From the NCBI GenBank assembly GCA_947330515.1, contig CAMZOE010000010.1, forward strand, positions 21,883 through 85,882: a DNA stretch of 64,000 bases, in the 5' to 3' direction. The first letter of the stretch is position 1; every line of letters starts with the position of its first letter. Below the pieces are notes generated by a model that ran no database searches, was not told the origin of the DNA, and saw only the letters and a program-made list of their open reading frames with translations. Below are positions 12,282-64,000 of this stretch, in pieces. This DNA comes from an uncultured Mycoplasmataceae bacterium (GTDB lineage: Bacteria; Bacillota_I; Bacilli_A; Mycoplasmatales; Hepatoplasmataceae). The position numbers were made by a program, and so were the translations under genes.

Positions 12282-12357
12282 TGGCAGGGGTGACAGGAGT
12301 CGAACCCGTAACCGATGGTTTTGAAGACCACTGCTCTGCCAATTGAGCTACACCCCT
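12282..12357 (-). tRNA. tRNA-Trp (anticodon UCA)
   Basis: Cloverleaf AGGGGTGTAGCTCAATTGGCAGAGCAGTGGTCTTCAAAACCATCGGTTACGGGTTCGACTCCTGTCACCCCTGCCA; anticodon TCA. Confidence 0.95.
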
Positions 12358-15600: not shown

Positions 15601-16466
15601 TCCTTAGTATAATATCCGTTACCTACTCTTTTCTTAGCAAATTCTGTAAATTCATAACGAGCTAAATAATAATTTTCTCCTTTTTTAGAAGATGTTTTTT
15701 GTGTGAAACTATCATCTCTAAACATTTTGTCAAAAGAAGTATAAAAAGAATTATTTGAATAATTATAATCTTCCAAATTAACAAAATATAAAGTTCTAAT
15801 ATTTTTAATTATTTCCTCAGAACTTTGTAATTTAGCAGTAACTTGAAAACTTTGAACTAAACGATAATATAAATCGTTATTTTCATCATACAAAGAACTA
15901 TAGTAGTCATAACTATTTGCAATCATTTTTCAAACATCAAGATTAAAAATGACTCCTTTTGAATAGAAAGTATTTAACGGTTTATAAGTATGAGAAATTG
16001 GATCAAGGGTATCTGCTAAAGGTGATTCTTTATAAATCTCTGACATAAATTCACTTCATTTTGGTCCAAATTCTACTCCTGGAAATCATGGTAACTCGTA
16101 AGTAGGGTATGGCGCATCAACAAACATTTCCCAATATTCTTTAGTTAAATACTTTCTTGAATTTCAATCACCATAATAACCTTTATTTGGATTCAACGAA
16201 AACAAATGAGTATTGTAATTATCATGATTATCTTTAATACTATTTTTATAAGTTATCATGGAGGTAAAACCACCAAAAACAAAACCAAAGGAAATAGCAT
16301 AAAAGAAAAGTAAAATAACCATTGAAAATGAAAAAGATTTAATTGTTTTCAATGATGATTTATAAATAAATTTATTGTCTTTAATTCCTAAAATAAATTT
16401 AACCAATAATAAAAAAAATAACCCAATAAAAATAAAGGAAACTACTAAAATAACAATGCTTAACAT
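12651..16466 (-). CDS. Large FtsX/MacB-like ABC transporter permease
   Basis: Six same-frame ORFs merge through TGA into 1271 aa; 'SKIKDNYKQFGVLKSFGYSTNSIS' and 'DDNVREVSMLKSLGYNTRQTSKLIL' FtsX-type segments separated by large soluble regions. Confidence 0.8.
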
Positions 16467-16470
16467 CTTA

Positions 16471-17889
16471 TTAATATACTTTAGCAATAATTGCTATAGT
16501 ATTTACCATTTCTCCTGAATGAACACATTTTCCTAAAGTTGAAGTTTTTTCCAACATTCTAATAGTAGCTCCTTCAATTTTTTCTTGTAATTCAATCTCA
16601 AAAGCAGTATCTTCTTTTCAATAAACTTTTGCAACTTTATCGTTATCAATTACTTCTTTTAATTCTTCCATAGAATCAACTTTAGTAATAAATTTTAAAG
16701 TATTTGCTTTTGTTTTTTCAAATAAATTATTTTTATATTCAGTCTTAAATTCTTTAAAAAAATCTTTTGTAAGTAAATCTAATGAAACTGGATTTTTTGA
16801 ATTCTTAGAACGATCAACAATAATTACTTGATTTTGTTCTATATCTCTTTTACCAAGCTCAATTCTCATAGGAACTCCTTTAATTTCTCATTCTGAAGAT
16901 TTAAATCCCATTCCTTTTTCAGAATCATCCATTTTAACTCTTAAACCATAAGCTTTTAAAGTTTTAAAAAGTTCGCTTGCTTTTTGTGATATTTCTTGAT
17001 CACCATGAGGATTAAAAGTTAAAATTACAACATGAAATGGTGCGACATCTCAAGGAAGTACTAATCCTTCATCATCTGAATGTGACATAATAATTGCCCC
17101 AATACTTCTTGTTGAAACTCCTCAAGATGTTTGATTAGGATAAATTGATTTTTGTTCTTTACTTTGAAACTTAACATCAAAAGAAGTTGCAAAAGTAGTT
17201 CCTAAAAAATGACTTGTTGCTGATTGTAATGCTTTTCCATCTCTTAAAATAGTTTCTATAGTATAAGTATTTTTTGCACCAGCAAAACGTTCATTAATTG
17301 TTTTTTCACCATCTAAAACAAACATATCTAAGTGTTTATTATAGAACAGTTTATATAATGAAAGAATTTTTTTACTATATTTATATGCTTCTTCTTCAGT
17401 TTCGTGTAATGTATGTCCTTCTTGTCATAAAAATTCTGAAGTTCTTAAAAATGGGCGAGTGTTTTTTTCTCCACGCATAACATTTACTCATTGATTAAGT
17501 TTCATTGGTAGTTGCTTATAACTTTGTAAATTATCTTTAAAATATTTAGCAAATAAAGTTTCAGAGGTTGGTCTAATAACTAATGGTTCAACATTTTTAT
17601 TTCCAATTTTAGTAATAGTAAATACTTCTGGTGCAAAACCTTCAATATGTTCTTTTTCTTTTTCCAAATAAGAATAAGGAATTAACAATGGAAGATAAAG
17701 CTCTTCAATTTCATCTTGTTCGAAATATTTAGTTAAAATTTTTTGAATATTTTTTCAAATAGCAAAAGAATATGGTTTTAAAATAACACTTCCTTTGGAA
17801 GGTCCATAATCTATTAATTCTGCTTTAGTTAGTATATCAGTATATCATTTTGCAATATCTACATTAAAACTAGTGATAAATTTTGACAT
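16471..17889 (-). CDS. proS: Prolyl-tRNA synthetase (eukaryote/archaeal-type)
   Basis: 472 aa; '[14 protein letters not shown]', '[18 protein letters not shown]', '[23 protein letters not shown]'. Confidence 0.95.
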
Positions 17890-33612: not shown

Positions 33613-35541
33613 TTACTTGTAAATAAGATTTAATATCTTATCTTTTTTATAAATGATTTTTGAAATTTTTTCAATTTCAATTCGATGTTGTTTAATTAAT
33701 TGATCAAATTGAACTTTTAATGTTGGTTCAAGTTCTTCATAAGAAGAACTGAAATCATCACAAGAAATAAAAAACTCTTCATCAATAATCATTTTGATAA
33801 ATTTACCATTTTTTTGGAATACTATTTTTCTTTCTACTTGAAGTTTAATATCTAAAAGTTCAGGTCATTTAGCAAAAGATAATTCCTCTGTAAAAGTTGT
33901 TTTTGATCATAACTCTTCAGCGATATGAGGTGCAAATAATGATAATGCTTGAAGAAACACTTTATAATTTTTTTCACTAATTTCTTTAGAAGCATAAAAA
34001 TAGTTTACAAAAACCATCATATCTGAAATTGCATTATTAAATTTAATCTCATTAATATTTTTATCAAAAGAAGATAAAAAATTGTTATATTTTACATCAT
34101 CTTCATAATTTGATTCTTTTTTAAAAGATAATTTTTGATTAATATTGTAAACTCTATCTAATCATGTACGAATTCCTTTAATACCTTTATTCGATCATGG
34201 TTTAGCATCTGCAAGTGGTCCCATGAACATTTCATATAATCTTAAAGCGTCAGCACCATAAGTTTCGATTACTTCATCTGGAGAAACAGTATTACCTTTA
34301 GATTTAGACATTTTGTCTCCATCAGTTCCTAAAATCATTCCTTGATTAAATAATTTAATAAATGGTTCTTTTGTTTCAACAACTCCAATATCATATAAAA
34401 ATAGATGTCAAAATCTTGCATATAATAAATGAAGAACAGCGTGCTCTTGTCCACCGACATAAAAGTCAACAGATAATCATTTATTTAAACGTTTTTTAGC
34501 TTCTTTACTATCTAAGTCAAGAATAATATCTTTACCATTTTCATCCTTATCTTTTAAAATATAAGCAATGTAGTATCAACTAGATGCCGCTCATTGTGGC
34601 ATTGTGTTTAAATCCATTGTTCCTTTGATTCCATGATTATCATATTGAATTCAATCAGTTGCTTTAGATAATGATGGTTTGCCATCTTTAGAAAACGTAT
34701 AGTCCTTAATTTCAGGAAGTATAATTGGATAATCTTGTTCAGGAATTAAATATAATTCATTATTTTCTTGATGAACAATTGGAAATGGTTCCCCTCAATA
34801 TCTTTGTCTTGCAAAAATTCAATCATGAAGATGTAAACCCTTCTCTTTCTTCCCTTCATTATAAATTCAATTTTTTTGCAACTTAATAATATTTGTTGGT
34901 CAATTTAAACCATCAAGATTTTCAAATAAACGATCAGCATACTTAGTAATTTTTAATACTCATTGTTTCATTGGTTTTTTTACAACAGGAAAATCACCAC
35001 GCTCTGAAAACATTTTACCATCAACAATATTTACCTCTTCATTTGAAAGAACAGTATTTAATTCTTCACATCAATTAATTTCTATTGCTTTAATTTCTGC
35101 AAGTCCATGTTTATATAGTTGAGCAAAAATTCATTGTGTATGTTGATAATAATATGGTTCAGAAGTAATTAACGTTTGTTCTCAATTAAATGAAAATCCA
35201 AAACTTTTTAATTGTCTAACAAAATTACCAATATTTTTCATAGTAAATTCTTTAGGAGAATTATTTGTTTTGATTGCGTATTGTTCTGCCGGAAGACCGA
35301 AAGAATCAAATCCTATTGGATGAAGAACTTCAAAACCTTGCATTCTTTTTAACCTAGAATAAATATCTGTAATAGTGTACCCTTCTGGATGACCAACATG
35401 TAAACCTTGTCCTGATGGATAAGGAAACATATCTAATGAATAATATTTAGGTTTGCTTGAATTTAAATCAACCTTGAAAATATTATTATCTTCTCAATAT
35501 TTTTGTCACTTTTTTTCAATTTCTTTATGTTTATAATTCAT
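33613..35541 (-). CDS. leuS: Leucyl-tRNA synthetase lacking CP1 editing domain
   Basis: 642 aa; '[19 protein letters not shown]', 'DWIFARQRYWGEPFPI', '[33 protein letters not shown]'; no CP1 insertion. Confidence 0.96.
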
Positions 35542-35555
35542 ATATGAATTATAAA
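35530..35555. promoter_or_regulatory. 26-bp perfect palindrome containing leuS start codon and a TATAAT -10-like element
   Basis: TTTATAATTCATATATGAATTATAAA; TATAAT ends 6 nt before ATG on the minus strand. Confidence 0.65.
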
Positions 35556-35556
35556 A

Positions 35557-35587
35557 TAAAAAAAGAAACATTTAAGTTTCTTTTTTT
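35557..35587 (-). terminator. Terminator downstream of the giant coiled-coil gene
   Basis: AAAAAAGAAACTTAAATGTTTCTTTTTTT on minus strand. Confidence 0.7.
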
Positions 35588-35608: not shown

Positions 35609-38600
35609 TTAATTGCTTTTAAGTAATTTAATTAATTTTTGAAATGATGTATGTTTTAAGAATTTTTTATAAGCATTTTCATCTTTATCAAGTTTTGAAA
35701 TTAAAAGATTTAAAGCATTAATTGGATTTTCAGGATTATATTTAATACCGAATTTATCTAATTCTTCAAAAATAATAGTTTTGAATGAAATTTCATTTTT
35801 ATTAGAAATTTTTGAAGATAAAATTGAATTTGATAAACGTTTCATATTTCAGAAATATGGTTTAACTTGACTAAGTTTGTATGGTTTTTTCATTTCTAAA
35901 TATTCTTTTGAAGAAAAAATTTCTTTAGATTCATTATCGTAATCAACAAATAAGAAGATTTGTGAAAATTCTTTTTGTTGAGTTGTTTCTAAAACTTTTT
36001 TAATTTCATTTTTAGATGATGGAAGTTTAATAAATTCATAAATAAACTCAGACATTAATATTTGTTCTTTATCTACAATTCATTTAATAAATTCTGTTGA
36101 TAAAGGAGATGTTAAAATCAATCTTTCTTTTTCAAATGAATTTTGTTCAAACCCTTCAGATAAATTATTTAATCTTAAAAATTCATCACGTTTATTTAAT
36201 TGTACTTCAACTTTATTGATTCTTTTTTTCAACTCATCATTTTTTAGTTTTAAAAAATCTTTTTCTTTAGTTAATTTTATAACTTTATTTTGAGTATCAA
36301 TAGAATTATTGTTTTTTCCAAGTGATACTAATTTGTCTTTTAAAGAATCGTTTTCTTCTTCTTTGGTAATTAAAGTTTCTTTTAATTGATTAATTTTTAA
36401 GTTCGCTTTTTCTAATTTCAAGTCATTATTAGAATCTTTGGATTTTTTCAGTTTTATTTCTTTAAATTCTTTTTCTTGTTTAGCTAATTTTGCTTTTAAA
36501 TCTTTAACTTCTTGTTCTTGTTTTTTAATTTGAGTTTTTAACTCTTTTGAATCATCAGCTTTAGTTTTATGATCTTCTTTTTCTTTAGCTAATTTTGCTT
36601 TTAAATCTTTAACTTCTTGTTCTTGTTTTTTAATTAGTTCTTTTCTATTATTTTCATTCTCTTTAGAAGAATCAGCTAATTGACTTTCAAGGTTATCAAG
36701 TTTATCTTTTAATTTTTGATTTTCATCATTAATTATATTTGTTTGTTTTTTTGTTGTTTTTTCTAGTTCGCTAATTGCTTTTTTCATTTCTGAAATTTTA
36801 GCGGATTGAAGTTTAGCGTTTTCTTTTGCCACTTCTTTTTGTTCTTTTAACTTTTGAGTTTGTTCTTGAATTTTAATTAATTTAATTTCATATTTTTCTT
36901 TTAAGGAATCAACTGTTGTATTTGATTTTTCAGTAATCATTTCTTTTTCTTCATTTAAAGAAGTTATTTTATCTTCAAGTTCATTAATTGTTTTTTCAAA
37001 CTCATCATTTTGTTCTTTTAATTCATTTTGAATTGCTTGGAATTCAATTGTTTGTTCTTCTAATTCTTTTTGATTAGTTTTATGTTTTTCAATTTCAGCT
37101 TCATAATTTATAAGTTTTTTGTTTTTAGTAATAATTGCTTTTTGCAATTCATTTAATTTTGCTTTTAACTCTTTTATAGAAGTTGTTTTTTCTCTTAATT
37201 TTTCATCTTTAGAATTAGAACTTTCATTTGCTTTTTGTAATTTAAGTTCTAATTTTGAAAAATTATTTTTTCAAGTTTCAATTTCATTATCTTTAGTTGA
37301 TAATTCAAGTTCATTATTATGAGTAAGTGTTTCAATTTCATTTTCCAATGTTTCAATTTCAACTTCCAATTTATGAGAAATTTCCATTAATTTAGAATTT
37401 TGTTCTTGTGTTTTAACCTCTTGGATTTTTAAAGATTCTGTTTGGTCTTGAACAATTTGTAGTTTTTTACCTAAAAGATCATTTTCTTTTTGTAATGTTT
37501 TAACGGAAGTATTCGCTTCTTTTAAATCTTTTAAAGATTCTTTTGCTTTTTCAAAATGTAATTGTTTTTGTTCTTCAGATTTTTCTAATTTTATAATTAA
37601 GCGTTCTACTTGATTTTCTAAGCGTTCATTTGAAAGTTTATAATCATTAATTATATTTGTTAATTCTGTTTCTGAATTTTCTAAAGTTTGTAAGTCTTTC
37701 TTAATGTTTTCTTTTTCTTCTTCTATTTCGTTATTTTTTTCTTTAAGATCACTTAGTTTTGCTTCAAAATCATCTTTTTCAACTATCATTGATTGAATTT
37801 GATTGTTTAAAGTTTTTACCTGTTCATTAAGTTCATTTTGAAGTTTTTCATTTTCTTCTTCAATTTCTTTTTGAAGTTTTTCGTTGTTTTCTTCAGTTTC
37901 TTTTTGAAGTTTATTCAATTCATCTATTTGTTCATTGAATTTTTCAATTCTTTCATCTTGAACTTTAACTCTATCACTTCTTGCATTTAAATCTCTAGTG
38001 ATTATATTAATCATTGATTCACTTTCAATAAGTTTATCTTTTAAATTAGACAATTCATTATTTTTTTCAATAATTATTTCATCTAATTTATCTTCTAATC
38101 CTTCAATTAATATATTTTTTTCATCAAGTTTTTCTTCTAAAATACTAACATCTTTTTTTGTAGATTCAATCATAACTTGACGATTGTTTGATAAAATTGT
38201 TTGTTCTTGTAATTTTTTATCTAACTCATCTATCTCTTGATATTTTTCAATTTCTGTTTTTTCTAATTCTGTTTTTTGATCATTATTAGTTTGTGTTAAT
38301 TGTTTGATTTGAACAAGAGCTGACATTAAATCTTTTTCTGTTTCTAATAGCTTACCATTAGTGTCTCCAAAATCTTTTTTCAATTCTTCATGTTCAATAT
38401 GTTTACGGTCTAATTTATTTTTAATTTCTGAAATTACTTTTTCAGATGATAATTTTTCTTGTTCAACTTCAAATTCCAAACGATCAATATCAATTTTTTG
38501 TTCATAATTTGTTGTTTTTAATTGTTCAAGATCTTTTTGATATTCATTTTGATTATCTTTTATTTCAACATTTTCTCTTTTTAAATCATTTATTTCATCT

Positions 38601-41278
38601 CTTAAAACCAATTCTCGATTTTCTAATGATTTTTTAAGAATTATTTTTGATGCTTCAATTTTATCATTTAACAATTCTGTTTGTAGTAATCTTGAATCAA
38701 GAAGTTTTAATTTTTCATATTTTACCGCATCTTCTTCTTCAAGTGCTAATTTTTTAGCTTCTAAAGCGTCATATTGTTGTTGTAAAATTTCATGTTTAGA
38801 ATTAGCATAATAAAGTTCATCTTTATTAGTTAATTCTAAATTTTCTAATTCAACTTTTATTTTATTGTTTTCTAATTCAATATCTTGATGAGCTTTTTTA
38901 AGTTCTTCATTAATTTCTTCTAATTTATCAATTTTAACTTCAAATAAATATATTTTTGCATATAATTCATCATATTCTTTTTCATTATTTTTTAATTTAT
39001 TATTTAATAATGTTATTTCTTTATTTGAATCCATTAATGTTTTTTCATGTTTTATTTCATAAGCATATTTTTCTCTTGTTGCTTCATTAATTTTACTTTG
39101 ATTAATTTTAGAATCAAAATAATGTTTTGTTAAATTAATTTTTAAATCATTTAGTGCTTCTTTTAAATCTTTATTTTCATCAATTAATGATTCTAATTCT
39201 TCATTATTTAAGTTATTTTCATTTTTAGATTCATCTACTAAATAACTATTTTTCAATTCTAGATATTGTTCATATAATTCTTTTTCTCTTTCGATGACAG
39301 TATCATAATTTTTTCTTAATTCTTTTTCTGAATTCTCTAAAAGAAAAATTTTATTTTCAAGTTCATTAACTTCATCATCATGATTATCTTTTTGTAACTC
39401 TTTTTCATTATATTCATTAAGTTGATTTGTTAATTCACTAATAATTTTTTTGGTTTCTTTATCTTCTTCTACATTATTTTCATTTATTAAAGTAATTGTT
39501 TTTTTCAATTCATCAATAATACTATTACTTTTTTCTTTTGTTTCAACTAGTTCTTCATTAAGTTTATTTATTTCTGTTTGTAAAAGTTCTTTTTCTTCTT
39601 TAATTTGTAAAAGATCACTTTGTTCTTTTTCATTTACAAGTGGTTTTGAAGTTGTAGTTAATTCAGTTTTATTAGTATCAGTTTTTTCTTCAAGATAATC
39701 AATATAATCATTCAATTCTTGATTTTCTTTTTCTAAACTTAACAATTCATCTTGAAGATTAACAAATTCTTCATCTTCATCATCGTTCACATATTTAATT
39801 TCTTCTGAAAGAATATTATTTTTTTGATTAGTTTCTAAAAGTTCTTCTTCTTTTATTTCTAAAGAATTTTTTAATTTGTCTATTTCTTGTAATAAAGCAA
39901 TTTCTTTTAATGAATCAAGATTTTCTTTATCTACTTCAAGAAGTAATAAATCATTAACGTTTTCATATCTTTCTTTATCTGTTAAAAAGATTGTTGAATA
40001 AACGATTTTTGATTTTATTTTATTAGCTATAAAAAATAATAAACGATCTTTTGTTACTTTTGGATAAGAATCAACTAATTGTTCTGTAAAGAAAATTTTG
40101 TTTTCTTTATCTTGTAAAATAATATTTAATACTTGAAAGAAGTTTAAAAATCCACTTCCTAAATTTTCTAAATTATAAATTTCATTATTTGAATCGACAA
40201 TTCTTATAATTACAACTTCATTTTCATGATATGAAAAAGGAATTAATTTTATTTCTTTTATTTTAATATCATTGTTTTCACTTAATTTTAAATAGTAAGC
40301 AAAAAATTCTTTAAGTTTACTTTTTACTTTTTGTGAAAGTTTTCCATTACTATTTTTTCTTTTTGTTAACTCTTTGAATAAATCTTCTTTTGTTGCATTA
40401 AAGAAAGAAAGAAAAACAGACAATCAATCCTTTTGATTATCAATTATGTTTACAGTTTTTCCATAATTTTCATCTTGTTTAATGAAAACAATGTTTTCTT
40501 TTAAGTAAGCAAAAATTTCTAAACGAATATCATTAGTTTTTAGTTCTCTTCAAATTTCAGTTACACTTTTTAATAAAGGAATTAATTTTTCGATAAATTC
40601 AATTTCAAATGATTCTTTGCCATTTGTTCCATGAACTAAAATATCATTAATTAATTTATATGAATCATTTTTATTTTGAATAATGGATTTATTTAATGTA
40701 ATAAAAATTTCAAAAATACCAATAACATTTTCAAAAGTAATATCTTGAATATTATTTTCTAAATCTTCCATATGATTATTTTCTTGAACAATTATATGAT
40801 TTCTTTTTGAAGATGAATATTTTTTATTGTTAATGAATAAATATTCTCTAATTAACTTTTTAAAACTTTTTTCATCTTTTTCTCTCAATGAAAAGAAATT
40901 ATTTCAAATATTAAAAAAATCTTGATTTAAAAAATTAATATCGTTTTCAACATTAACTGAAACATCAGGAAAAATACTAGCATTTTTATTTACTCTAACT
41001 AAATAATTTAAATTTTTATATGTTTTTCCATTTTTGGAGACAAAATTATCAAAATTAAAATTAATTTCAATATCTTTATCTAAAGAAGAATTAAAATCTA
41101 TAGCATCAAATAAGTTATATCCTAATGCTTTTTCAATCGCTTTTGTAATATTTTTTTTACCCGATCCATTTTTGTTCGAATAAATTGTTAAATTTTTATC
41201 TGGATGACTAAGATTGTCTAACTCTACACCATCATCATTAAAGTTTCTAAAATTTTTTATTTTTATTTTTTTTAACAT
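35609..41278 (-). CDS. Giant (1889 aa) coiled-coil protein with degenerate N-terminal OLD/RecF-like ATPase head
   Basis: Six ORFs in one frame joined by TGA=Trp; head 'IKIKNFRNF...NKNGSGKKN...LGSGFLNFF...KIFFTEQL'; ~1250 aa of E/K/L/N heptads; C-terminal globular segment. Confidence 0.85.
36479..36635. repeat. Two exact 52-bp direct repeats, 105 bp apart
   Basis: tttagctaattttgcttttaaatctttaacttcttgttcttgttttttaatt at 36479-36530 and 36584-36635. Confidence 0.85.
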
Positions 41279-41401
41279 TTAACTTCACCTGTCTTAATTT
41301 AAAATACTTATATTTAAAAATAAGTATTAATGTTATATTCATTATTATTTATAATTATAAACTATATCAACAAATTGAATTAATTGTTAAAAAAAATAAA
41401 A

Positions 41402-41424
41402 AAGAGAGATAATGTTTCTCTCTT
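41402..41424 (-). terminator. Hairpin downstream of tRNA-Ile
   Basis: AAGAGAGA-TAATGTT-TCTCTCTT followed by AT-rich tract. Confidence 0.55.
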
Positions 41425-63013: not shown

Positions 63014-64000
63014 TTAATCTAATAAATTATTTAGTGCTTGAACTAAAGAATCAACTTCTCCGTTTCAAATTAATTGGAAAGAATTTGCTCTTCCTACAAT
63101 ACTTTTAACATCTAGAGTTGTTATTTTTTCATCATCAACATTTTTTCTATTTTCTACTTTTATAGAAATTCTTGTAATATTACTTTTAATTGTTTTAACA
63201 TTACTTTTACCACCAAGAAAACCAAGTAATAATTTTGCAGTTTCTTTATCTTCTTCAGAAATTGTTACTTGTTGTTCTTCAAAAACTTCTTTTGATTTTG
63301 AGTATTCTTTTGTTTTAGTTTTTTCTTGAATAGGTGATGATTTTTGATCAGTTGTTTCTTTTTCAACAGTGGCTTTTTCAGCAGCGGCTTTTTTTGCTTT
63401 AGCTAATTCTTTTTGACGTTTTTTCTCTTCATGAAGTTTTTTATCTGCTTCTGCTTTTGCTTTAGCTTTTGCATGAGCTTCTTCACGTTTTTTTTCTTTT
63501 TCTTTTTCTAACGCTTCTTTTCTTGCTTTTTTGTCTGCTTCTTCTTTTGCTTTTGCTTGTGCGGCTTTTTTGTCTGCTTCTTCTTTAGCTTGTTGTTGTT
63601 CTTTTGCTTGTGCAGCTTTTTTATCAGCTTCTGCTTTAACTTGTTGTTGTGTTTTTGCTTGTGCAGCTTTTTTATCTTCTTCAATTTTATTTTGATCTAT
63701 TTGTGTTTCTAAAGTTTCTTTTAATTCTTTAAGAATTTCAAGAGCTTCTTCTACTTCTTTAACATCATTAGATTCATCAACTATTACTATTTCATCAGCA
63801 ATAATTTCTTTTGTTAAATTGTTGATTAATTGATACTCTTTTTCAACCGCTTCAACATTATAACTAACTTTTCCTGATTTCATATCTCTTAGTTCTGATT
63901 TTAGAAGATCGGCTTCTCCACCAAAAATAACTTGTAAATTTTTATCTTTACCTGAAACTCCTGCAGCTCCAAGTTCTTTTAATAAATCATCATGAACTAG
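63014..64000 (-). CDS. PTS EIIB-like protein (5' end outside window) with KA-rich linker and second degenerate EIIB-like domain
   Basis: N-terminal part in window 'LKELGAAGVSGKDKNLQVIFGGEADLLKSELRDM' and C-terminal 'AKLLLGFLGGKSNVKTIKSNITRISIKV...VGRANSFQLIWNGEVDSLVQALNNLL' both fit the PTS EIIB pattern. Confidence 0.65.
63533..63673. repeat. 17-aa (51-bp) repeats in EIIB-like linker
   Basis: KKAAQAKTQQQVKAEAD / KKAAQAKEQQQAKEEAD / KKAAQAKAKEEAD. Confidence 0.85.

Follow-up and report, generated by a model that had tools for sequence, protein, structure and literature searches.

What does a reduced, wall-less bacterium do with a protein of 1,889 amino acids that joins an ATPase-like head to a coiled coil of some 1,250 residues? 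The gene in question lies in a 64,000-nucleotide stretch of Hepatoplasmataceae DNA (the window), contained within one 85.9-kb contig of a MAG (832,759 bp, 85 contigs, 84% completeness); Hepatoplasmataceae MAGs of up to 0.83 Mb have been described from the foregut of Rimicaris shrimp (PMC9636832). The gene and the putative signals upstream of it are as follows.

35609..41278, minus strand: whole gene, 1,889 amino acids, 223.6 kDa, pI 5.1, a single gene between tRNA-Ile/rpsI and leuS
41361..41390, minus strand: promoter-like TTAACA-18-TATAGT with TG upstream of the -10, read upstream of the gene
41402..41424, minus strand: terminator-like hairpin downstream of tRNA-Ile and ahead of the gene (1 found against 0.4 expected)

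Under genetic code 4 the frame runs on the minus strand from an ATG at 41278 to a stop at 35609-35611 and contains no TAA or TAG. An earlier note on this DNA had read six open reading frames in one frame with only TGA between them as a single protein; this was borne out, and the strand is added here. The six TGA codons are tryptophans (W125, W243, W285, W1336, W1733 and W1810), a reading that fits a tRNA with a UCA anticodon at window positions 12282-12357 (minus strand), labelled SeC by ARAGORN and, under code 4, most likely a TGA-reading tRNA-Trp. Each of the remaining five frames holds 24-182 TAA/TAG codons, and the probability of an open frame of such length arising by chance, computed from base composition, is approximately 5e-79. 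Codon usage correlates with that of neighbouring housekeeping genes (0.975), as does synonymous codon usage in the head (r 0.92) and in the coil (r 0.98) taken separately. The giant ORF is real. It was considered whether the gene might nevertheless be decaying or non-functional, or a mis-assembly of an ATPase fragment with an unrelated coiled-coil gene, as degenerate motifs in the head, the incompleteness and fragmentation of the MAG and the absence of relatives of the protein could suggest. Quite improbable on balance, this explanation is opposed by 1,889 open codons, by host codon usage in both head and coil, by the placement of the window inside one contig and by a ribosome-binding site, AGGTGA, approximately 8 nt before the ATG.

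The terminator-like hairpin suggests a separate transcript, and from sequence layout the gene looks like a single-gene unit; promoter-like sites are no more frequent than in shuffled sequence. Its surroundings are housekeeping genes (rpsI, tRNA-Ile, rplM, truA and leuS). Synteny comparison yielded no positional orthologue in relatives, since rpsI and leuS are not neighbours there. The leuS ORF as listed (window 33613-35571, minus strand) begins at an ATG within a T-rich hairpin just past the stop of the giant gene; translation probably begins at its second Met, residue 11. The leuS match in a complete family genome (G004:C1:185810-187714) has one TAG among its TGA codons, which may just mark the frame end. 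In a further family genome (G009) two coil-rich ORFs of 886 and 613 amino acids lie directly downstream of leuS (L103:12532-15189 and 15896-17734), an arrangement that differs in other family members.

The protein divides into three parts, with a repeat near the end of the second.

39932..41278, minus strand: head, residues 1-449, pI 7.7, SMC_N/AAA_15/PtuA-like at the N-terminus
36161..39931, minus strand: coiled coil, residues ~450-1706, ~1,257 residues, pI 4.9
36422..36631, minus strand: internal duplication of 35 residues (five heptads), residues 1550-1584 and 1585-1619
35612..36160, minus strand: tail, residues 1707-1889, pI 9.0 (basic), without heptads or known domain

The coil was scored with a heptad matrix that approximates the classical COILS preferences and whose values are relative. 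Blocks of 50 residues scored above 0.3 from 451 to approximately 1700, with those of the head and the tail lying near 0; the mean over residues 450-1690 was 0.434, with 93% of residues above 0.3, against -0.02 for residues 1-449 and 0.266 +/- 0.013 in composition shuffles. A Fourier test agreed, giving a windowed heptad power of 2.14 versus 1.04 +/- 0.12. These data uphold the continuous coil of about 1250 residues that the earlier note had placed after the head, its end being placed at approximately residue 1706 by visual judgement and from the extent of the AF2 helix. A single proline (546) occurs between residues 407 and 1724, and heptad scoring detected no hinge mid-coil, no 50-residue block between 451 and 1700 falling below 0.32; a GDTNG spot near residues 971-975 is not a hinge-sized interruption. 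Fully extended, ~1,257 residues at 0.15 nm each would measure about 185 nm; the earlier note had given a potential length of more than 150 nm for one continuous helix. Register shifts occur roughly every 40-90 residues, so that the rod may bend or break. The duplication shows that the coil has grown recently and in whole heptads. No membrane-like segment was present in the protein (maximum KD19 1.27). SMC and Rad50 models also matched the coil, among them NCBIfam SMC_prok_B at 4.8e-11 over the coil alone, and these matches were rejected as compositional. Elsewhere in the window (63017-63883, minus strand) a 289-residue protein has approximately 150 high-scoring coil residues.

Within the head, two segments bear on its relationship to known ATPases.

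41153..41176, minus strand: degenerate Walker A, NKNGSGKK, residues 35-42, consensus GxxxxGK[S/T], read directly
39992..40156, minus strand: candidate remnant of signature, Walker B and H-switch, residues 375-429, SGFLNFF...KIFFTEQLVDSYP...KIVYST

Profile searches placed Pfam SMC_N on residues 1-55 (E=1.8e-5 with the head, 2.8e-7 with residues 1-70) and Pfam AAA_15 at the same terminus (6.9e-6), both under the gathering score, and from a defence library PtuA matched the head at 5.9e-6, with PbeC and GajA weaker. Against a profile of local SMC, RecF and AAA_15 proteins residues 1-80 scored 22.9 bits, where the best of 5,000 shuffles reached 14.6. On such profile evidence the P-loop region is real, and the data support a relationship of residues 1-75 to P-loop ATPases of the SMC/RecF/AAA_15/OLD kind. 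A match of the protein to Pfam RsaA_NTD (E 0.11) was rejected. AF2 of residues 1-619 from a single sequence gave pLDDT < 50 across the head.

The second half of the ATPase, which the earlier note had also placed in the first ~450 residues, stands less firmly: the N half is matched by profiles, but of the C half there is no more than a degenerate trace, and a profile built from Mycoplasmatales AriA-like ATPases did not score it above shuffles. The order and spacing of residues 375-429, the sole candidate segment, match the signature, Walker B (DEPExxLHP) and H-switch (THS) of relatives, for example SSGFKAFF...DEPDKNLH...TSHSP. A pattern written post hoc for the segment occurred in 9 of 50,000 shuffles; run over 2,196 decoy tiles, it matched only genuine ABC-type ATPases. 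Similarity to AAA_15/OLD/RecF is significant for the N half and for the C half is confined to this motif pattern, so that a second ATPase half below profile detection is plausible at this position. Its catalytic residues are substituted (Walker B Asp to Thr and Pro to Gln, H-switch His to Ile, as in FFTEQ and STIF), and Walker A has lost both its first Gly and its final Ser/Thr. Because Walker A, Walker B and H-switch residues are all replaced, the head is probably a pseudo-ATPase, provided that the second half is correctly read, and the degenerate motifs suggest that it has lost hydrolysis. The kinship in the earlier note's "ATPase-like head" accordingly holds, but it had missed these substitutions, which make an active ATPase doubtful.

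With PtuA the best defence-library match, and with such ATPases present in relatives, the protein could have evolved from an ATPase of the OLD/PtuA/AriA type into a sensor of stress or of anti-phage defence, coil and tail forming a sensor or effector arm. This seems improbable: the matches are confined to the P-loop N-terminus, neither an effector domain nor a partner gene was found, and the gene is a predicted single-gene unit with degenerate motifs among rpsI, rplM, truA and leuS.

The tail produced no match in Pfam or NCBIfam, no recognised DNA-binding domain and no match against the PDB. AF2 of residues 1600-1889 returned coil plus a helical tail of low confidence, and Foldseek of this model found nothing at E<=0.001. 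The tail scores near zero for heptads, as expected from the earlier description of a C-terminal segment of ~200 residues lacking them.

The arrangement of parts was then compared with that of SMC, Rad50 and SbcC, which the protein resembles in its long coil and, below the gathering score and with a degenerate Walker A, in an SMC_N-like P-loop region at the N-terminus. It differs in that the two candidate ATPase halves both come before the coil, hinge and C-terminal half are missing and the motifs are degenerate; Pfam and NCBIfam searches revealed no C-terminal signature or Walker B half after the coil. The succession of head, uninterrupted coil and non-heptad tail claimed earlier, which is not that of SMC/Rad50, is therefore sustained, and because the whole coil separates head from tail there is no counterpart of the SMC-style tail-to-head hairpin. 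The host has a housekeeping SMC (C35:6672-9497, 951-961 amino acids; TIGR02168 score 762), whereas the giant protein reaches 41 bits against a cut-off of 567. That a standard SMC/Rad50/SbcC has been misread as a new architecture, a suspicion raised by the SMC-like N-terminus and long coil, is scarcely credible given no hinge-sized break, no signature or Walker B in the tail and a true SMC elsewhere; this reading is already refuted unless a highly diverged half is hidden in the tail. A giant coil joined to a head of the SMC/OLD class would be a variant architecture, ending in a tail without recognised domain.

A less direct tie to the SMC/Rad50/RecN world would be a DNA or nucleoid tether, in which the head dimerises and perhaps binds ATP, the basic tail grips DNA and distant chromosome sites are bridged. 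The head N-terminus is closest to SMC_N, the coil has its compositional SMC matches (SMC_prok_B) and the pI of the tail would suit DNA, but the part order differs, the hinge is absent, catalytic residues are missing, a full housekeeping SMC is already present and the tail has no recognised DNA-binding domain. We regard a tether of this kind as unlikely.

Homologue searches covered 320 Mycoplasmatales genomes. No head homologue was found in these or in 395 sampled Bacilli, IMG/VR, phages and plasmids, and no credible tail homologue in the 320 Mycoplasmatales, IMG/VR and phages; one weak tail match in Mycoplasmatales (E=4e-4) carried an in-frame TAA and was discarded as noise. Since coils evolve fast, genomes were also scanned for the architecture. 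In the host, where the scan covered most of the genome (contigs 1-66, apart from some contig ends), the giant gene had 1,162 high-scoring coil residues and the next protein, SMC, 325. The complete genome of Ca. Hepatoplasma crinochetorum (657,101 bp) contained no comparable protein by coil scan, the maximum of 275 residues again belonging to SMC. As far as sampled, the gene appears specific to its genus, where it is represented by one genome. Hepatoplasma attaches by stalk-like appendages (PMC5033963), and because stalk-forming H. crinochetorum lacks a comparable protein, the giant protein is not a general family scaffold. The gliding role and comparison with M. mobile raised earlier do not apply, the host being a member of the Hepatoplasmataceae and the full scan of H. 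crinochetorum having turned up no such protein. Three Hepatoplasma genomes encode a conserved 527-529-residue OLD/AriA-like ATPase with intact motifs near dinB-like and ftsZ-like genes (L159:5325-6905, L160:5808-7394 and L162:5979-7559). An ABC match in H. crinochetorum (G003:C1:456022-456513) falls within an open frame reported to be 13,708 amino acids long, and giant repetitive ORFs have been reported for Hepatoplasmataceae (PMC10928387).

The giant protein probably serves its lineage as a specific scaffold or tether inside the cell, and the analogy with HMW2 makes a cytoskeletal or spanning function a reasonable proposal. The reading we tentatively prefer, at somewhat short of even confidence, is a cytoplasmic parallel rod with a retired-ATPase cap and a basic docking tail, acting as a fixed-length spacer or scaffold in a wall-less cell. 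Two or more chains would zip in parallel along ~1,250 residues, giving a rod no longer than ~185 nm; the heads at the N-terminus, derived from an SMC/RecF/OLD-class ABC ATPase minus its catalytic residues, would form a dimerising or docking cap; the tail would dock elsewhere, on acidic membrane, on the nucleoid or on a protein partner; and the rod might fix a distance as HMW2 sets core length in Mycoplasma pneumoniae. Counting for this rod are the continuous coil with one proline in ~1,300 residues, the lack of a second ATPase half in the tail and of a membrane-like segment, the substituted catalytic motifs, the whole-heptad duplication and the precedents of HMW2 and PcdA. Counting against it are low AF2 confidence for head and tail, the register shifts, the activity of PcdA and the lack of a counterpart in H. 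crinochetorum. The bolder claim of a new bacterial cytoskeletal ruler or tether, a ~185-nm rod capped by a retired SMC/OLD-class ATPase that arose within one Hepatoplasmataceae genus independently of HMW2, is rather unlikely. Were the rod model true, giant coiled-coil length standards would have been invented more than once in wall-less bacteria, and an ATPase head of the SMC/OLD world would have been recycled from enzyme to structural part in a reduced genome. The protein would then also offer a testable handle on the way symbionts of this kind acquire their shape or arrange their nucleoid.

Among known systems, OLD, PtuA, AriA and AAA_15 proteins share with the giant protein the motif order within one contiguous head, an insertion between the halves and matching N-terminal profiles, but they keep their catalytic motifs and, in the relatives examined, lack a 1,250-residue coil. 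PcdA of S. aureus, a degraded NTPase of defence type that has come to work with the division cytoskeleton, is reported to keep NTPase activity despite degraded Walker motifs (PMC10602043), so that such motifs do not prove inactivity. Like the giant protein it is lineage-restricted, of defence-type NTPase origin, degraded in its Walker motifs and cytoskeleton-linked, but it belongs to the McrB/AAA+ family, has EVE domains and lacks a giant coil, and the parallel is one of analogy only. HMW2 of Mycoplasma pneumoniae has 1,818 amino acids, 1,257 coil residues and a calculated length of ~190 nm, and engineering has shown that it sets length in the attachment organelle (PMC8191905). It too is a giant mollicute protein of similar size and comparable coil length, the equality of the two coils being a coincidence within coil-boundary error, but it is described as 11 coil domains and is likened to the giant protein by description, with no sign of sequence kinship: neither head nor tail of the giant protein had a credible match in 320 Mycoplasmatales genomes. 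To our knowledge, a P-loop-like head has not been reported for HMW2. By this analogy HMW2 would be the nearest functional analogue of the giant protein, which is probably not itself a member.
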